Made by a program: the position numbers and the translations under genes. Under the pieces are notes generated by a model. It saw only the letters and a list, made by a program, of their open reading frames with translations. It did not search any database and had not been told where the DNA came from. This document shows, one piece after another, positions 11,391 through 61,814 of a stretch of 64,000 bases of DNA. Position 1 is the stretch's first letter; every line of letters starts with the position of its first letter. Source of the DNA: Akkermansia sp. (GTDB lineage Bacteria > Verrucomicrobiota > Verrucomicrobiia > Verrucomicrobiales > Akkermansiaceae); assembly GCA_017472085.1 (NCBI GenBank), contig JAFUQZ010000040.1, forward strand, positions 1 through 64,000. Direction: 5' to 3'.

Positions 11391-11807
11391 TTAACCGGCA
11401 AGTATACCGGCTTTTTTCAGGTCTTCGGCCAGTGCTTCCACATCGTCCAGGTTCAGGACTCTGCTGCAGATGGTGATGGAGGTGTCGGGTGATTGAAGGA
11501 TGATGGTGAGCCCGGCAATGCCTTGCAGCTGCACTTCTTCTTGTCTGGCCTCCGTCACATCGCGCCAGCGGAGGCGCCGGGGACGCCGAAGGAGGCGGTG
11601 CTCACTCACACCATCGGCATCAATGCGGTAGCGCAGGAAGATGTAGTGCAGCGCCCAGATGACGACTCCGCCCGCCGCTACGGAGGCTGTGATGCTGCGG
11701 GTAGACAGGGGTTCGGTGAGCCAGACGTAAACGGTGGCAGCCACCACCAGCAGGGAGATGGCTGCATACATGACAGCGTTGGCGCAGTGCAGTGTTCGCG
11801 GAATCAT
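11391..11807 (-). CDS. Small membrane protein with PH-like domain
   Basis: This 138-residue protein has two N-terminal membrane segments (YAAISLLVVAATVYVWL; ASVAAGGVVIWALHYIFL). A compact domain follows, beginning YRIDADGVSEHRLLRR and continuing RLRWRDVTEAR, which matches bacterial PH-like (bPH) domains: a turn with D-G, then W-x-D-(I/V). Function is unknown. Its ATG overlaps the upstream L,D-transpeptidase stop by four bases (ATGA), indicating translational coupling in the LysM/transpeptidase operon. Confidence 0.65.
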   Translation of the reverse strand: MIPRTLHCANAVMYAAISLLVVAATVYVWLTEPLSTRSITASVAAGGVVIWALHYIFLRYRIDADGVSEHRLLRRPRRLRWRDVTEARQEEVQLQGIAGLTIILQSPDTSITICSRVLNLDDVEALAEDLKKAGILAG

Positions 11808-12673
11808 GCCTGAAGCGGGGCGGCTGCGGGAGTCTGAGCCGGAATGGTGCGAATTTGCTGCGGGGCAATGTCTGTGTAGTCGTTGCCGGGCTTGGGACGG
11901 TATTTCACGTCAATCGGGCGCACATAACCGCCGCGGTTGTAATCCTCCACCGCGCGGGAGATGTACACAGGCATGCCGAATTCGGAGTGCTCGAACAATT
12001 TGGCAGCCACGGCGTAGGGGGTGCGGATGCAGCCGTGAGAAAGACGGCGACCGGCAATGACCTTGCCGCCGTGGATACCCACGCCGTCCCAGGTGAGACG
12101 GTGCCAGTTGGGCATGCCTGCGGCGCTGAATGTGGCGCCTTCGGGCAGGCCCTTGGAAAGGTCTGCATTGGAGTCAATGGTTTTGCCCTGGGCGTTCACA
12201 AACCTGCCGTAGCGGTTGGATTTGTGGTCCTTATCCTTTTCCATCACGCGGAACACGCCTGTGGGTGTTTCATGCCCGTTGGTGCCGGTGGATACGGGCC
12301 AGTCCAGCGCCACTTTGCCCTCCACATAGAGACGGGCGCGCTGCTGGGGGATGCAGATGACGATTTTGGAGTTGCCCACGGTCAGCCGGTTCAGCAGGAC
12401 ATCGTCCGAATAGGTCTCCATGGTTTTGGGATATGCCGGTTGTGCGACAAAGTGCTCGTAGGTGCCGGCGGGGTAGGGGTTCTGATATCCCGGGACATTC
12501 TTGTTGGGCAAATCCAGCGGGTTGATGGCCGTCGGCTGGACAAAGACGAGCTGCTGCTGCGGGACGGGCTGTTGCCCGGCCGGATATACATTTGCCCCGG
12601 CGGGGTAGGGCTGCGGAACGCAGGCTGCCGGAAGCAGGGCTATGAGGGCAAGAGAGAGGCGGGAGGTGTTCAT
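11804..12673 (-). CDS. L,D-transpeptidase (YkuD/ErfK family) lipoprotein
   Basis: This 289-residue enzyme has an N-terminal signal ending LLPAAC, a lipobox-like sequence, so it is probably membrane-anchored and exported. A Pro/Gln-rich linker follows. The YkuD domain occupies about residues 95-230, with the active-site signature IHGGKVIAGRRLSHGCIR (His, then Ser-His-Gly-Cys). The family makes 3-3 peptidoglycan crosslinks or attaches proteins to peptidoglycan. Its ATG overlaps the preceding LysM gene by four bases (ATGA) and its own stop overlaps the next gene the same way. That implies a single translationally coupled unit with two LysM wall-binding proteins. No substitution is seen in the catalytic motif. 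Confidence 0.92.
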   Translation of the reverse strand: MNTSRLSLALIALLPAACVPQPYPAGANVYPAGQQPVPQQQLVFVQPTAINPLDLPNKNVPGYQNPYPAGTYEHFVAQPAYPKTMETYSDDVLLNRLTVGNSKIVICIPQQRARLYVEGKVALDWPVSTGTNGHETPTGVFRVMEKDKDHKSNRYGRFVNAQGKTIDSNADLSKGLPEGATFSAAGMPNWHRLTWDGVGIHGGKVIAGRRLSHGCIRTPYAVAAKLFEHSEFGMPVYISRAVEDYNRGGYVRPIDVKYRPKPGNDYTDIAPQQIRTIPAQTPAAAPLQA

Positions 12674-13746
12674 GGTTGTTTCTGGGTGGGAAGATTAAGT
12701 GTGGCTCCGGCTCGCAGTTTATCGGCTGTTGCCGGTGTCAGGCCGTTGGCATTCATCAGGAACTCGGGGGATATGTTCAGCTTGCGGGCGATGCCGTAGA
12801 GGGTGTCGCCGGGCCGGATGGTGTAGACGGAGGCTGCCCCTTCCGCTGACTGTTCGGGAGCTGTCTGTGGCGGTTGAGGGGAGGCCAGTTCCGGCTGCGG
12901 CTCAGGTGCAGAAGTGGTTTCCTGCGGGGGCAGGATGACGGATACCGGCCCTGTGGCGGTTGCTTCCTGCTTTTTCGGCGTCAGGGTGCGCCGGGGGGCT
13001 GTTGATTGGGATGCCCCGGAGGGGATGAGCAGCTTCTGATTTATCTGGAGCGGTTTGTTGATGTCGAGTCTGTTGAGCTCGATGAGCCGACGCGTGGTGG
13101 TGCGATGGCGGCGTGCAATGGCGCTGAGTGTGTCGCCGGCTACCACCGTGTAGGTTGTGTTGGTTTGCGGCTGATTATCGGCAGCCTGCTGGCCGAACAG
13201 GTTGCTGAAGAAGCCCGGTTGATCATCCCGGTCGGGTCTGGCGGCTGCCTGCGGAGCAGGCAGCGTTGAGCCGATAGCTGCGCCGTCTGCAGGAATCAAC
13301 AACTTCTGGTTGAGTTGCAGCGGCTTGTTGATATCCAGCTTGTTGAGCTCGATAAGCGTCTTTGTTCTGGTCTTGTGGCGAGCGGCGATGCCGCTGAGCG
13401 TATCACCCGCCACGACGTTATAGACGATGGGATGCTGCGGTTGCGGAGTCGGAGTGGCGGGCCGGGGCTGCGTTTGCGTAGCTATAGCCGCAGGTGGGGG
13501 GGGCTGTGTTGCCGAGGGAAGCGGTGCCGGAATGGGGGCGGTGGCTTCGGTCGGGGGAATCGTTTCTGATGCGGGAATATCCAGCGCACCCACACCGCGA
13601 TCCACAAACACGCTGTCATCCACGGGCGGGGTGAATTGGTCGCCAATCCAGTGGAAGTCGGGTTTCCCATTGATGATGCGGCAGGAGGGCAGGGCCAGAG
13701 CTGCCGCGCTCATCAGAATGCAGGTGGTTGTGAATCGAGTGTGCAT
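12670..13746 (-). CDS. LysM lipoprotein with three LysM domains
   Basis: This 358-residue protein begins with a signal sequence ending ALALPSC (lipobox). A low-complexity Pro/Ala/Thr linker is followed by LysM repeats at about residues 108-152 (VYNVVAGDTLSGIAARHKTR), 199-243 (YTVVAGDTLSAIARRHRTTT) and 310-355 (YTIRPGDTLYGIARKLNISP). The first two repeats are nearly identical, including the LIELN-LDINKPLQ-NQKLLIP tail, suggesting recent duplication. LysM binds N-acetylglucosamine-containing glycans, here presumably peptidoglycan. A run of eight C/G lies in the linker (13496-13503). It sits upstream of the L,D-transpeptidase, with overlapping start and stop codons. Confidence 0.85.
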   Translation of the reverse strand: MHTRFTTTCILMSAAALALPSCRIINGKPDFHWIGDQFTPPVDDSVFVDRGVGALDIPASETIPPTEATAPIPAPLPSATQPPPPAAIATQTQPRPATPTPQPQHPIVYNVVAGDTLSGIAARHKTRTKTLIELNKLDINKPLQLNQKLLIPADGAAIGSTLPAPQAAARPDRDDQPGFFSNLFGQQAADNQPQTNTTYTVVAGDTLSAIARRHRTTTRRLIELNRLDINKPLQINQKLLIPSGASQSTAPRRTLTPKKQEATATGPVSVILPPQETTSAPEPQPELASPQPPQTAPEQSAEGAASVYTIRPGDTLYGIARKLNISPEFLMNANGLTPATADKLRAGATLNLPTQKQP

Positions 13747-13767
13747 GTGCGGTGTTCAATGCCTGCG

Positions 13768-14865
13768 TTAGCGGCGATTACGCTTGCCGGATTTCTTGCT
13801 GCTCTTCTTGCCGGTTGATTTGGCCGGGATGGTGAGTTTGCGCCCGGCCTGAATCATGTCTGCCTGCTTTTTGGTCATGTTGTTGGCCTTGAGCAGCTCC
13901 TCGGTGGTAATGCCATAGCGGGAGGCGATGCGGGAGATGCTCTCGCCGCGCTTCACCGTGTGAATGGTGTTCCAAGCGGGCTCGGAGGCTTTCGCTGCGC
14001 TTCCCTTGGCCGGGATGGTGAGCTTGCGGCCGGGCTGAATGCGGGCGGCCTGCTTGGAGGTGAGGTTGTTGGCTTTGAGCAGGGCGGCAGTCGTGACGCC
14101 GTTTCTGGCGGCAATGGCAGAGATGCTGTCGCCGCGTTTCACGGTGTATGTGGTTTCCTTAGCCTTCTCCGCAAGAGCGGCCTTGGAGCCCTTGGGATAG
14201 TACTTCACCTTGATAATCTGACCGGGATAGATGAGGTCGCCCTTGATGTTGGAGTCCTTGCGAATCTGAGCCACGGTCGTGTTACTGCGCTTGGCGATGA
14301 GGGTCAGATTGTCGCCGGGGCGCACTTTATAAGTAACCACGGTGGGTTCCTTGGGCTTCTTGATGCTCTTTTTCTCTTTGGCGGTGAGCTTCTTGATATC
14401 TGCCGTGCTGCGGCCGGGTTTCGCGGCTGGCTTAGACTTGGCGGGTGTTGTGATGGCTGCCACGGTTTTCTGCGTTACCGGGCTTTCAGCTGCGCCGCCG
14501 GTCGGTGCAGGGATGATGGTGGCGCCTTCTTCCGTGGTCAGCGGGCTGGTGTCGGAATCAACAAAGGTGTCGTCCTGGGCCAGCTGCGGTTGGTTCTGAG
14601 ATGCTGCGCCGCCGGCTGGGGTATCTGCCACTTTGATTTCATCATCCGGGAAAGAATGGTCAGTATAGGAGCCTGCGGGAATCTGTTCTCCGTCTTCGTT
14701 GTCCTCCAGCAGCCAGGGGGGCAATTCGCCATCTGCCACTGCCATTTCACTCATCGGCAGTGCCTCCTCATAACCACCGGGGTAGTCATTCCGGGTCTGC
14801 TGGCAGGCGGTGAATGTCACCATCATGCCGGCACCTAAACTGAGAATGCTCAAAGTTTTTTTCAT
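13768..14865 (-). CDS. LysM lipoprotein with three C-terminal LysM domains
   Basis: This 365-residue secreted protein has a signal of the form MKKTLSILSLGAGMMVTFTAC (lipobox TAC). A negatively charged, Gly/Asp/Pro-rich stretch follows, then a basic region. Three LysM domains come next: VTYKVRPGDNLTLIAKRSNT, YTVKRGDSISAIAARNGVTT and HTVKRGESISRIASRYGITT. The tail is strongly basic (KSTGKKSSKKSGKRNRR). The second and third repeats are very similar, including LLKANN and GRKLTIPAK. The start is ATG 14865, since the further-upstream start at 14892 would spoil the signal peptide. It is the first gene of the minus-strand operon leading into the second LysM protein and the L,D-transpeptidase. Confidence 0.85.
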   Translation of the reverse strand: MKKTLSILSLGAGMMVTFTACQQTRNDYPGGYEEALPMSEMAVADGELPPWLLEDNEDGEQIPAGSYTDHSFPDDEIKVADTPAGGAASQNQPQLAQDDTFVDSDTSPLTTEEGATIIPAPTGGAAESPVTQKTVAAITTPAKSKPAAKPGRSTADIKKLTAKEKKSIKKPKEPTVVTYKVRPGDNLTLIAKRSNTTVAQIRKDSNIKGDLIYPGQIIKVKYYPKGSKAALAEKAKETTYTVKRGDSISAIAARNGVTTAALLKANNLTSKQAARIQPGRKLTIPAKGSAAKASEPAWNTIHTVKRGESISRIASRYGITTEELLKANNMTKKQADMIQAGRKLTIPAKSTGKKSSKKSGKRNRR

Positions 14866-57785: not shown

Positions 57786-60383
57786 ATGGATGAGCTGGAC
57801 GAATATCAGGCCCGCAGGTCTGCCGCAGAGCAGCGTCGCCGCAAGGCTATGCGCCGCGAGCAGTCTGGTCGCAGGGAAACAAGCCTTTTGAAGCGAATCC
57901 TCTGGCGTGTTTTCATTGTTGGGGTTGTTTTTTTTCTGGTGTGTGCCGGTCTTGGCTATGTGGTGTTTCTAACCGTTACGGCAAAGTACCAGAAGTGGGC
58001 AGATGAGTTCAATCTTGAGGATATCAATAACCTGGATCATCCCTGCATCATCTACGATCGGAACAAGGAGGAAATCGGGCGTATCTATGATGAGAATCGG
58101 AGTTATGTGACGTACGATAAAATCTCCCGTTCCATGATTGATGCTTTGGTCGCTCAGGAGGATAAGACATTCTGGACTCACAAGGGGGTTGACCCGGTGG
58201 GTATCATTCGCGCTGCCCGGGAAGCATTGGCAGCCGGGCAGGCCAATCAGGGGGCGTCCACCATTACCCAGCAGCTGGCCCGCGGTGCTTATGATTTGGA
58301 ACAGCGTACGCAGGCTATAGGCGGCAGTCGCTATGAGCGCAAGATTGTGGAAATCTTTCTTGCCATGCGCATTGAGAAAAAATACGACAAGCAGCAGATA
58401 ATGGAATTTTATCTGAATCGTATTTATTTCGGGAAGGGGTATTATGGCATACGTGCGGCTTCTCTGGGGTACTATGGCAAGGAACCCGCGGATCTGACCG
58501 TGCGCGAGGCTGCCAGCATTGCTGCTCTCATCAAGAACCCGGAAAATTATAATCCCATCAAAAATCCGGAGTTGAATCGGAAGTGGCGCAACGATGTGAT
58601 TGACCGTATGCAGCGTATCGGCATGCTGACGCAGGAGGAGGCTGAGCGGGTCAAACAGCAGCCCCTGGAGTTGAATCCCAAACCTCTTCGCCGCAATACA
58701 TCGTTCCTGCATGCCCTGGTACAGCAAAAGGCAACGGACATCTTCCGCGACCCGAAGCGCGGAGAGGAGATTATCAAGAGCAGAGGAATCAAGATTTATA
58801 CCACCATCGACCGCCGTATGCAGGAGGCGGCTGAGTCCGCGTTACGCAATCAATTGGACTCAATAGAAAAGCGTGAGGATTACAGCCATACGAAGTTCAC
58901 GGATAAGGTAAAGGAAGGAGAAGACCCTCACCGTTATCTTGACGGTACGGTGTTTGCGGTTGATAATGCAACCGGCGGCGTGTTGGTGTATGTTGGCGGG
59001 CGCAGCTTTGAGAAAGATAATTTTGACATCCTCCAGTATGGCCGGAGACCGTTGGGAACAGCCATGCTGCCTTTCCTGTACATGTCTGCTTTTGAAAATG
59101 GGTACTCTCCCTGTTCCCGTCTGGTGGACGATGCCCTCGATAATCGACTGGCCGGTATTGGTGGCTCGGAAGGCGTGCTCGGGGAGTGGGGTATGGAAGT
59201 GGATAAAGGCCGATATCTGGATTCCGTTACGGCCCGTCAGGCTCTTGAGTGGTCCAAGATTGCAGCTTCAGCCCGGCTGGGCATAGCGCTGGGGTCTCAT
59301 CCGCGAAAAGGTGCCCGACCCTTTATCGACACGCTCACCAGTGTGGGCATTACGCCTCCCAGAAGAAATCCGGGAAGTACGGAGGCAAAACCGTTGTATT
59401 ACCCCCGCGTGTATCTCGGCACGGAACCTGCTTCCCTGCAGGAGGTGACCATGGCGTATACCGTATTCCCGAATGTGGGCCGCCGCCCCATAGCCTCCTA
59501 CATAGTGACCAAGATAACGGACAGCAGCGGAAACATCCTCTGGGAGGAGCCGCTTGCTGCCGCGCCCCGACTGGTTAATGCTGTCGGCGGTTGCACGGCT
59601 TATCGCTTACATTCCATTCTGAAAGAATCCATCAACCGTGGTTCGGCGCAACGCATGCGCACCTATCTTCCCCAGAATTTCAACGGTGCTGTCAAGAGCG
59701 GTACCAACTATGATTTCAGCGATAATGTCCTCATGGCATACAACTCCGGCTTTACCTGCGGCGTGTGGATGGGATATCTCAATGACCACCATGCCATCTA
59801 TCCCGGGGCGTTTGGTACGGATACCTGCGGCCCGGTAGTTGCCGCTCTCTTTCAGGCGGCTCAGGGCCACTACAAGGATGAGCCGATTGAGATGCCTTCC
59901 GACACGGAGGAAGTGGAAATATGCCTGACGTCCGGGCAGGTAGCCACCAATTTCTGTTTTGAATCCGTGATGAAGAATGGCAAGCCCGGTTATGTGCGCC
60001 GTACCTATCGGGAGTATTTCCCGAAAGGCGATGTGTCGCTGGGTGTTTGTTCCACTCATGGTGATGGAAGCCCCTCACTGGTGGATTTCCTGGAGACCTC
60101 TGCCAACCAGATGGCTTCTTCGCGGGTGTTGCCCATAGTGCCCATATTACCCAGAACTCCGGCTATCATCGGTAGTGATCCCTACGAGAGTGAAGTGACT
60201 CTGAATCCGCGTTATAAGGATGCGGCCGCATTGGTGACAGCGGCAGATGACGCAGAGGAGGTCGGTGGTGTGGATGATGATACGCCGGAAGAGGAGGATG
60301 CCCCGGCGGTGGACTCCACGATAGAAATTTCTGCACCCCGTCCCATGCGTCATTTACCCTTAGTCCCGCTGGAACTCAGATAA
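57786..60383 (+). CDS. Class A PBP with intact transglycosylase and inactivated transpeptidase
   Basis: This 865-residue bitopic protein has a basic cytoplasmic N terminus, a membrane helix (about 38-64), a GT51 domain and a transpeptidase-fold domain. The GT51 motifs are complete: catalytic EDKTFWTHKGVD (E125) and GASTITQQLARG (156-167), then RKIVEIFLAMRIEKKY. In the transpeptidase domain the SxxK site reads TAML (425-428, in GRRPLGTAMLPFLY), SxN reads SKI (490-492), and KTG reads KSG (637-639). The serine and lysine nucleophile pair is therefore gone, although the surrounding fold (VYVGGRSF, YLGTEPASLQEVTMAYTVFPN, GVWMGYL) is well kept. It can probably polymerise glycan but not crosslink. 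The C terminus is acidic. Confidence 0.9.
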   Translation: MDELDEYQARRSAAEQRRRKAMRREQSGRRETSLLKRILWRVFIVGVVFFLVCAGLGYVVFLTVTAKYQKWADEFNLEDINNLDHPCIIYDRNKEEIGRIYDENRSYVTYDKISRSMIDALVAQEDKTFWTHKGVDPVGIIRAAREALAAGQANQGASTITQQLARGAYDLEQRTQAIGGSRYERKIVEIFLAMRIEKKYDKQQIMEFYLNRIYFGKGYYGIRAASLGYYGKEPADLTVREAASIAALIKNPENYNPIKNPELNRKWRNDVIDRMQRIGMLTQEEAERVKQQPLELNPKPLRRNTSFLHALVQQKATDIFRDPKRGEEIIKSRGIKIYTTIDRRMQEAAESALRNQLDSIEKREDYSHTKFTDKVKEGEDPHRYLDGTVFAVDNATGGVLVYVGGRSFEKDNFDILQYGRRPLGTAMLPFLYMSAFENGYSPCSRLVDDALDNRLAGIGGSEGVLGEWGMEVDKGRYLDSVTARQALEWSKIAASARLGIALGSHPRKGARPFIDTLTSVGITPPRRNPGSTEAKPLYYPRVYLGTEPASLQEVTMAYTVFPNVGRRPIASYIVTKITDSSGNILWEEPLAAAPRLVNAVGGCTAYRLHSILKESINRGSAQRMRTYLPQNFNGAVKSGTNYDFSDNVLMAYNSGFTCGVWMGYLNDHHAIYPGAFGTDTCGPVVAALFQAAQGHYKDEPIEMPSDTEEVEICLTSGQVATNFCFESVMKNGKPGYVRRTYREYFPKGDVSLGVCSTHGDGSPSLVDFLETSANQMASSRVLPIVPILPRTPAIIGSDPYESEVTLNPRYKDAAALVTAADDAEEVGGVDDDTPEEEDAPAVDSTIEISAPRPMRHLPLVPLELR

Positions 60384-60410: not shown

Positions 60411-61814
60411 ATGTCAACATCTGCTCAAACCATTGCAGCGACACAGGAGAAGGCTTTTTTCATCAATATGGATAAATCCCGGTACGGCTCATTCGCAGAG
60501 ATCGGAGCCGGCCAGGAAACGGCCAATTGGTTTTTCCGTTCATCGGGTGCTGCCGGAACCGTAGCCAAGACGATATCGGCCTATGATATGACGGTGAGTG
60601 ATACGCTGTACGGGACGGCTCGGCGCTATGTATCGGAAGAACGTCTCCTCCAGATGATGGATTATGAGTACAAGCAGCTCATCAATCGCCTCGGTGAAAA
60701 ACGCGGAAAAGATACCTGCTTCTTTGCTTTTTGTAATACTGTCAAATGCAAGGGATATCGGGATAACGGCCCGTGGTCTGCCTGGGTTGGTGTGCGTTTT
60801 CAGCTCAAGCCGGAGGCTCCGCCCAGTGACCTGGTCATGCATGTGCGACTGCTTGTGCCTGACCATGACCTGCAGATGCGTTTGCTTGGTATTCTGGGGG
60901 TGAATATGCTGTATGCCTTGTTTTACAAGCGCGAGCGAATGGAGGAATTCGTCGGGTGTATTGGTGAGAATGTTGATTCTGACTCATTTGAAATTGACTA
61001 TATGCGTTTTTCCGGCCACGGTTTCAACATGTTTGACAACCGAATCCTGGCCTTGCAACTGGTGCGCAGCGGGTTATCAGAACTCACCCTGTTCTGCCCG
61101 GGAGGATTGGTGGCGCAGCCCTCTGACCTACTGTATAAGCGCCCCATTGTGCTGATGCGCGGTAGTTTCATGCCCCTGTGCAATATCCACTTGGAGATGA
61201 TGGAGAGTGTGCGTCATAAATTCTGTGAATCCTTGTCGGAAGGGCAGCGTGACAAGGTGGTGGACCTGTGCGAGATATCGCTCTCTAACCTGCTGCGCGG
61301 TTCTGAGGTGGATTTACTCAGCTTCCTGGACAGGGTGGATGCTCTTGCCGCCCTGGGCAAGACCGTCATGGTTACCAATATCACCCATTTCCACCGCATC
61401 TCCACCTTGCTGAATCAGTTTACGAAAGAGCCGATTGCCATAGCACTTTCCATCGGATTGCTCAACGAGTTGTTCAAGGATAAGTGGGCCGATACGACCG
61501 GCGGTATCCTGGCCAGCATGGGGCATATCTTCGTGAATAAGACCAAGTTCTATGTAACGCCGTGGATTAACCGCAGCACCGGGGAATTTGTGACTGCCGG
61601 GACATATCGCGCGCCGGAAAAGTATCGTTATCTGTACCAGCACCTGCGAGAGAATGGCGATGTGATAGAAGTTCCCTATTTTAACCAGAAACTTCTTTTC
61701 CGTACGCCGCGTGATATTATTCGCATGATTGTGTCCGGCGATGAGCAGTGGAAGGAATATGTGCCGGAAGCCGCTTATCGTATGGCTGAGCATCTGAAAG
61801 GAGGCGAGGCCTGA
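60411..61814 (+). CDS. Conserved cytoplasmic protein of unknown function
   Basis: This 467-residue soluble protein has no signal or membrane segment. Strong, evenly distributed conserved-looking text is seen (KSRYGSFAEIGAGQETANWFF; SAYDMTVSDTLYGTARRYVS; GKDTCFFAFCNTVKCKGY; YMRFSGHGFNMFDNRILALQLV). The style is that of a widespread housekeeping family, and from memory I think similar proteins occur in several bacterial phyla under unreliable names. No catalytic motif can be named. It follows the PBP gene by 27 bases, and its TGA shares one base with the sufS ATG (TGATG), so translation of the two is coupled. Confidence 0.7.
   Translation: MSTSAQTIAATQEKAFFINMDKSRYGSFAEIGAGQETANWFFRSSGAAGTVAKTISAYDMTVSDTLYGTARRYVSEERLLQMMDYEYKQLINRLGEKRGKDTCFFAFCNTVKCKGYRDNGPWSAWVGVRFQLKPEAPPSDLVMHVRLLVPDHDLQMRLLGILGVNMLYALFYKRERMEEFVGCIGENVDSDSFEIDYMRFSGHGFNMFDNRILALQLVRSGLSELTLFCPGGLVAQPSDLLYKRPIVLMRGSFMPLCNIHLEMMESVRHKFCESLSEGQRDKVVDLCEISLSNLLRGSEVDLLSFLDRVDALAALGKTVMVTNITHFHRISTLLNQFTKEPIAIALSIGLLNELFKDKWADTTGGILASMGHIFVNKTKFYVTPWINRSTGEFVTAGTYRAPEKYRYLYQHLRENGDVIEVPYFNQKLLFRTPRDIIRMIVSGDEQWKEYVPEAAYRMAEHLKGGEA

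Follow-up and report, generated by a model that had tools for sequence, protein, structure and literature searches.

Does a class A penicillin-binding protein (PBP) whose transpeptidase (TP) motifs are altered still crosslink peptidoglycan, and if it does not, what is the altered domain for? The question is raised by a gene at positions 57786-60383 of the window, by which we mean the whole 64,000-nucleotide stretch that was analysed, from a contig of the gut bacterium Akkermansia sp. (JAFUQZ010000040.1, assembly GCA_017472085.1). The gene and all of its features lie on the forward strand. From an ATG start, it encodes 865 amino acids in the architecture of a class A PBP: a membrane anchor at the N-terminus, then a GT51 glycosyltransferase (GT) domain and a TP-fold domain. 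The anchor is a hydrophobic stretch recognised by sequence reading at about residues 34-65 (57885-57980), and the predicted structure has a helix at residues 2-73. The GT51 domain (residues 95-276, 58068-58613) matches PF00912 with an E value of 1.4e-59 and has its catalytic residues intact (E125, TQQ at 161-163, K186, E189 and N211), including the Glu of EDxxFxxHxG, the second Glu, the TQQ and the Lys that characterise class A PBPs. The TP-fold domain, at about residues 386-695 (58941-59870), is catalytically degenerate, and beyond it stands a C-terminal Cys-rich module (residues 711-758, 59916-60059) with conserved C713, C724, C755 and H758. The full TP fold separates the protein from the monofunctional glycosyltransferases (MtgA/MGT). 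A Pfam search of the 865-residue protein returned no transpeptidase domain above threshold; on its own, the TP domain scores 15.8 bits against PF00905, under the cut-off of 22.1, as against 84 for the intact class A paralog of the same genome. The nearest NCBIfam family is PBP1A, at 369 bits and under the cut-off of 509 bits for that model.

Alignment by phmmer to the PBP1a of Pseudomonas aeruginosa (4oon), which has no gaps at the motifs, places T425 on the catalytic Ser, L428 on its Lys, I492 on the Asn of SxN and K637 on the Lys of KTG, and alignment to the PBP1a of Acinetobacter baumannii (3udf) sets TAML on SxxK, SKI on SxN and KSG on KTG. Where an active DD-transpeptidase has SxxK, the protein has T425-A-M-L428 (59058-59069), with Ser replaced by Thr and Lys by Leu; where it has SxN, the protein has S490-K-I492 (59253-59261), with the Ser retained and the Asn replaced by Ile. 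At the third position, K637-S-G639 (59694-59702) conforms to K[TS]G, a conservative variant. The initial annotation gave these coordinates and letters exactly, but its statement that all three motifs are changed was right only for the Ser and Lys of SxxK and the Asn of SxN: S490 is kept, and KSG is not a loss, because K637 is retained and the middle residue alternates between Thr and Ser in the genus. On these alignments, the true losses are the nucleophilic Ser, replaced by Thr, the Lys of the same motif and the Asn of SxN, and the loss of TP catalysis is strongly indicated. A displaced serine-lysine pair, which the initial annotation had named as evidence that would speak against a dead domain, was looked for, and none of the other SxxK strings, at residues 33, 359, 367, 407, 610 and 727, lines up with the motif.

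The altered motifs are a property of the genus. All 41 Akkermansia orthologs have T..L at the SxxK position, which rules out a sequencing error. The SxN position reads S.I in 40 orthologs and S.V in the remaining one. At the KTG position, 22 orthologs have KTG, 17 KSG, 1 KGG and 1 KCG, such that KTG or KSG occurs in 39 of the 41. The protein of the window groups with orthologs from Akkermansia metagenome-assembled genomes (L071 and L072) to which it is about 70% identical, and genome G152 carries a TxxL ortholog as well (L166). One record titled Akkermansia muciniphila contains an ortholog (L079) that is only 35% identical and clusters with other families; it is probably a mislabelled or mis-binned contig.

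Orthologs in the order's other families and in other orders of the class likewise have Thr where Ser is expected, and beyond the genus the position of the Lys is occupied by T, L, F, V, I, H, Q or A, with K in a few. A loss confined to the species of the window is ruled out by these orthologs in the genus and beyond. In a maximum-likelihood tree, built after the motif columns had been removed, the pseudo-TP proteins form a clade with 98% SH-aLRT support that comprises 55 rows, includes other orders, and is separate from the phylum's intact class A paralogs and from the outgroups. The change from Ser to Thr is present in every sampled member of this clade save two closely related proteins, L050 and L080, which have the full set of SAFK, SKN and KTG and have either branched early or reverted. 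Because these two proteins keep the complete set and a few other members keep TxxK, the loss does not extend to every clade member. As L050 and L080 fall inside the clade, the free tree requires two changes between Ser and Thr, but a tree constrained to unite all Thr proteins in one clade is not rejected (p-AU of 0.214), so that the trees are compatible with a single loss, L050 and L080 then lying outside the clade, with two losses and with a reversion. Whether the loss is fixed in the lineage, a check put forward with the initial annotation, can therefore be answered: it is fixed in the genus, and it is fixed in a clade that spans several orders. The best explanation, which we consider probable in conjunction with the polymerase function set out below, is that catalysis by the TP half was lost before the radiation of Akkermansia.

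The fold of the domain has outlasted its motifs. An AlphaFold model computed from an alignment of 58 sequences has a mean pLDDT of 84.3 (over 90 in most TP blocks) and contains a helix at residues 424-437, the location of the SxxK helix. Comparisons with Foldseek and with VIA-align matched class A PBPs across both domains, among them P. aeruginosa PBP1a (Z of 43.5, 2.5 A over 383 residues) and Escherichia coli PBP1b (E value of 1.4e-36 in Foldseek). Structure prediction, another of the checks originally proposed, thus recovers a preserved TP fold, and the initial view that the fold around the motifs is intact is upheld by a model of high confidence. In the most closely related pair, dN/dS is 0.034 (0.043/1.28) for the TP domain and 0.014 for the GT domain, and it is low for the TP domain in all valid pairs, at about 0.03-0.08 (the misframed pair L021/L022 being left out), values that are rough and of moderate precision, as synonymous sites are near saturation. 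Together with the orthologs, these low ratios rule out a frame error or a pseudogene.

Such strong purifying selection indicates that the TP domain is no decaying relic. That it might be one, functionless and appended to a GT51 half that alone matters, is improbable. Among 30 members of the genus, identity is indeed higher in the GT domain than in the TP domain (82% versus 72%), and the eroded TP region of the third GT51 protein of this genome implies that the domain can be dispensed with elsewhere; but the TP domain remains full length and folded, is better conserved than the linker (63%) and the C-terminus (56%; the N-terminus is at 52%), and has persisted through several orders under that selection.

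Constraint within the domain is unevenly distributed. Across 52 orthologs of the clade, the GT51 residues E125, D126, Q162, Q163, K186, E189 and N211 are invariant, which bears out the earlier reading of the GT51 site as intact. In the TP pocket, T425 is present in all 52 proteins, K637 in 51 and G639 in 50, and positions 428 and 492 vary (in Akkermansia, 428 is always Leu and 492 is Ile or Val). For a domain freed from catalysis, the constancy of Thr425 and Lys637 is higher than expected. The uneven pattern argues that the acylation chemistry has probably gone and that some pocket residues are still constrained, for which ligand binding would be one possible account and a structural need another; residual chemistry by Thr425 is also possible. 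An active transpeptidase, in which Thr425 would be the nucleophile and a different base would stand in for the SxxK Lys, would accommodate the constancy of Thr425 and Lys637 and the TxxK of some clade members, but we regard it as very unlikely. Known SxxK acyltransferases are served by the Lys and Asn that the Leu at 428 and the Ile or Val at 492 have removed from the Akkermansia proteins, and elsewhere in the clade position 428 is T, F, V, I, H, Q or A, which offers no common replacement base. A more specific binding role, in which the pocket around T425 and K637 serves as a non-covalent receptor for D-Ala-D-Ala stem peptides that gates the GT or hands strands to crosslinking enzymes, with an ancient division of labour between intact and pseudo class A PBPs, is offered tentatively and is rather unlikely as a whole.

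The explanation that we favour, and consider likely, is that the protein is a glycan polymerase whose pseudo-TP domain is kept as a scaffold or stem-peptide-binding module, with crosslinking provided in trans. GT activity is expected from the GT51 residues, and the protein would polymerise lipid II into glycan strands; the pseudo-TP domain would neither be acylated by stem peptides nor bind penicillin covalently. The dead domain is presumably retained because the GT requires the TP fold structurally, and what remains of the pocket (Thr425, Lys637, Thr/Ser638 and Gly639), or the surface of the domain, probably binds stem peptides or partners. The initial proposal of a glycan polymerase with a dead TP domain agrees with the invariant GT51 residues, the predicted TP fold, the purifying selection and the fixed loss, and its suggestion of a regulatory or scaffolding role is one that we infer as well. 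Crosslinks would be made by an intact class A PBP, by class B PBPs or by L,D-transpeptidases.

Enzymes that could crosslink in trans are encoded in the same genome. It has three GT51 proteins (the one in question, C51 and C50), of which C51 (L064), the second class A PBP, has SVFK, SRN and KTG all intact, and two class B PBPs, C42 (STFK, SSN and KTG) and C67 (STFK, SNN and KTG), are intact as well. Paralogs of the C51 type have SxxK, SxN and KTG in 40 of 40 cases, taken from 20 additional Akkermansia genomes and 20 from elsewhere in the order, and those read from other orders are likewise intact. Because the intact paralog is constant across relatives, the dead and the intact class A PBPs travel together. 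The third GT51 protein, C50 (L063), lies beyond the window and has 654 residues in the open frame, with GT motifs intact and the TP region eroded and shortened; it is predicted to be a polymerase without a transpeptidase too. Its relatives include L068 and L069 in the genus and L170 in a sister genus, the last in tandem with an intact PBP. Elsewhere in the class, three long class A-like proteins (L177, L178 and L179) have A/S..Q at the SxxK position and MTG or MNG at the KTG position and, judged from these motifs, are a separate pseudo-transpeptidase lineage.

The initial annotation raised the possibility that crosslinking falls to an L,D-transpeptidase operon in the same window (11804-14865). 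Its YkuD protein (11804-12673, reverse strand) has an intact site, HG...SHGCIR, and adjoins two LysM proteins, but a necessary role for this operon in crosslinking is unsupported. The PBP and the operon show no gene linkage, being about 43-45 kb apart (about 45 kb for the YkuD gene, which has no specific link to the PBP), and this enzyme is one of seven YkuD matches above the cut-off in the genome, with an eighth below it. L,D-transpeptidases are ubiquitous in the order, numbering 4-20 in each of 59 relatives, and are no more numerous in Akkermansia than in the other families. Since the genome has intact PBPs of classes A and B, L,D-transpeptidases are not needed to explain crosslinking, although they could possibly act on the strands of this PBP. 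When the TP domain of E. coli PBP1b is inactivated by S510A, the GT of that protein supports wall growth together with the L,D-transpeptidase YcbB (PMC5089857). On this experimental precedent, and given the seven to eight YkuD proteins of this genome and several in every relative, the PBP could be the polymerase partner of L,D-transpeptidases in forming 3-3 crosslinks; the intact PBPs, the unremarkable number of these enzymes and the distance to the operon make this a doubtful alternative.

Other features of Akkermansia bear on where such a polymerase might act. Genomes of the genus (G000-G036) have one SEDS protein, FtsW, with none found in two incomplete assemblies, whereas two or three are found in most genomes from the order's other families. 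The lack of RodA in A. muciniphila was already reported (PMC5814848). Because Akkermansia is without RodA, a larger share of the elongation or side-wall work may fall to its class A polymerases. A gene that encodes 467 residues without a Pfam family (60411-61814, forward strand) begins 27 bases 3' of the PBP gene, adjoins it in all 30 genus loci read, and is better conserved than the PBP itself.

The protein resembles E. coli PBP1b and the PBP1a of P. aeruginosa and A. baumannii in its GT51-TP order, membrane anchor, fold and GT residues but differs from bifunctional class A PBPs in having lost the SxxK nucleophile and Lys and the SxN Asn, a loss fixed in its lineage. It shares GT51 and TP domains and a common lineage with C51, from which it is distinguished by the intact motifs of the latter. 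Like MtgA and the MGT of Staphylococcus aureus, it is expected to polymerise glycan without transpeptidation, but those enzymes lack any TP domain and this protein has a full TP fold under selection. The laboratory mutant PBP1b S510A of E. coli (PMC5089857) likewise combines a dead TP domain with a GT that polymerises for another crosslinking enzyme; there the change is single and engineered, whereas here it is natural, accompanied by further pocket changes and by an intact paralog, and the GT activity is predicted. A genome survey, where it treats Akkermansia, counts the genus simply as keeping class A PBPs (PMC8406291), and in their counts of these proteins neither it nor the earlier report (PMC5814848) separates the dead from the intact paralog. 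No description of a class A pseudo-transpeptidase lineage was found in the open-access literature searched.

The usual teaching is that class A PBPs are bifunctional, with the two activities coupled. A naturally occurring member, present throughout a lineage, that would be a polymerase only makes it possible to ask what role the TP domain has beyond its chemistry, how crosslinking of glycan strands in trans comes about, and whether beta-lactams fail to act on such a polymerase.
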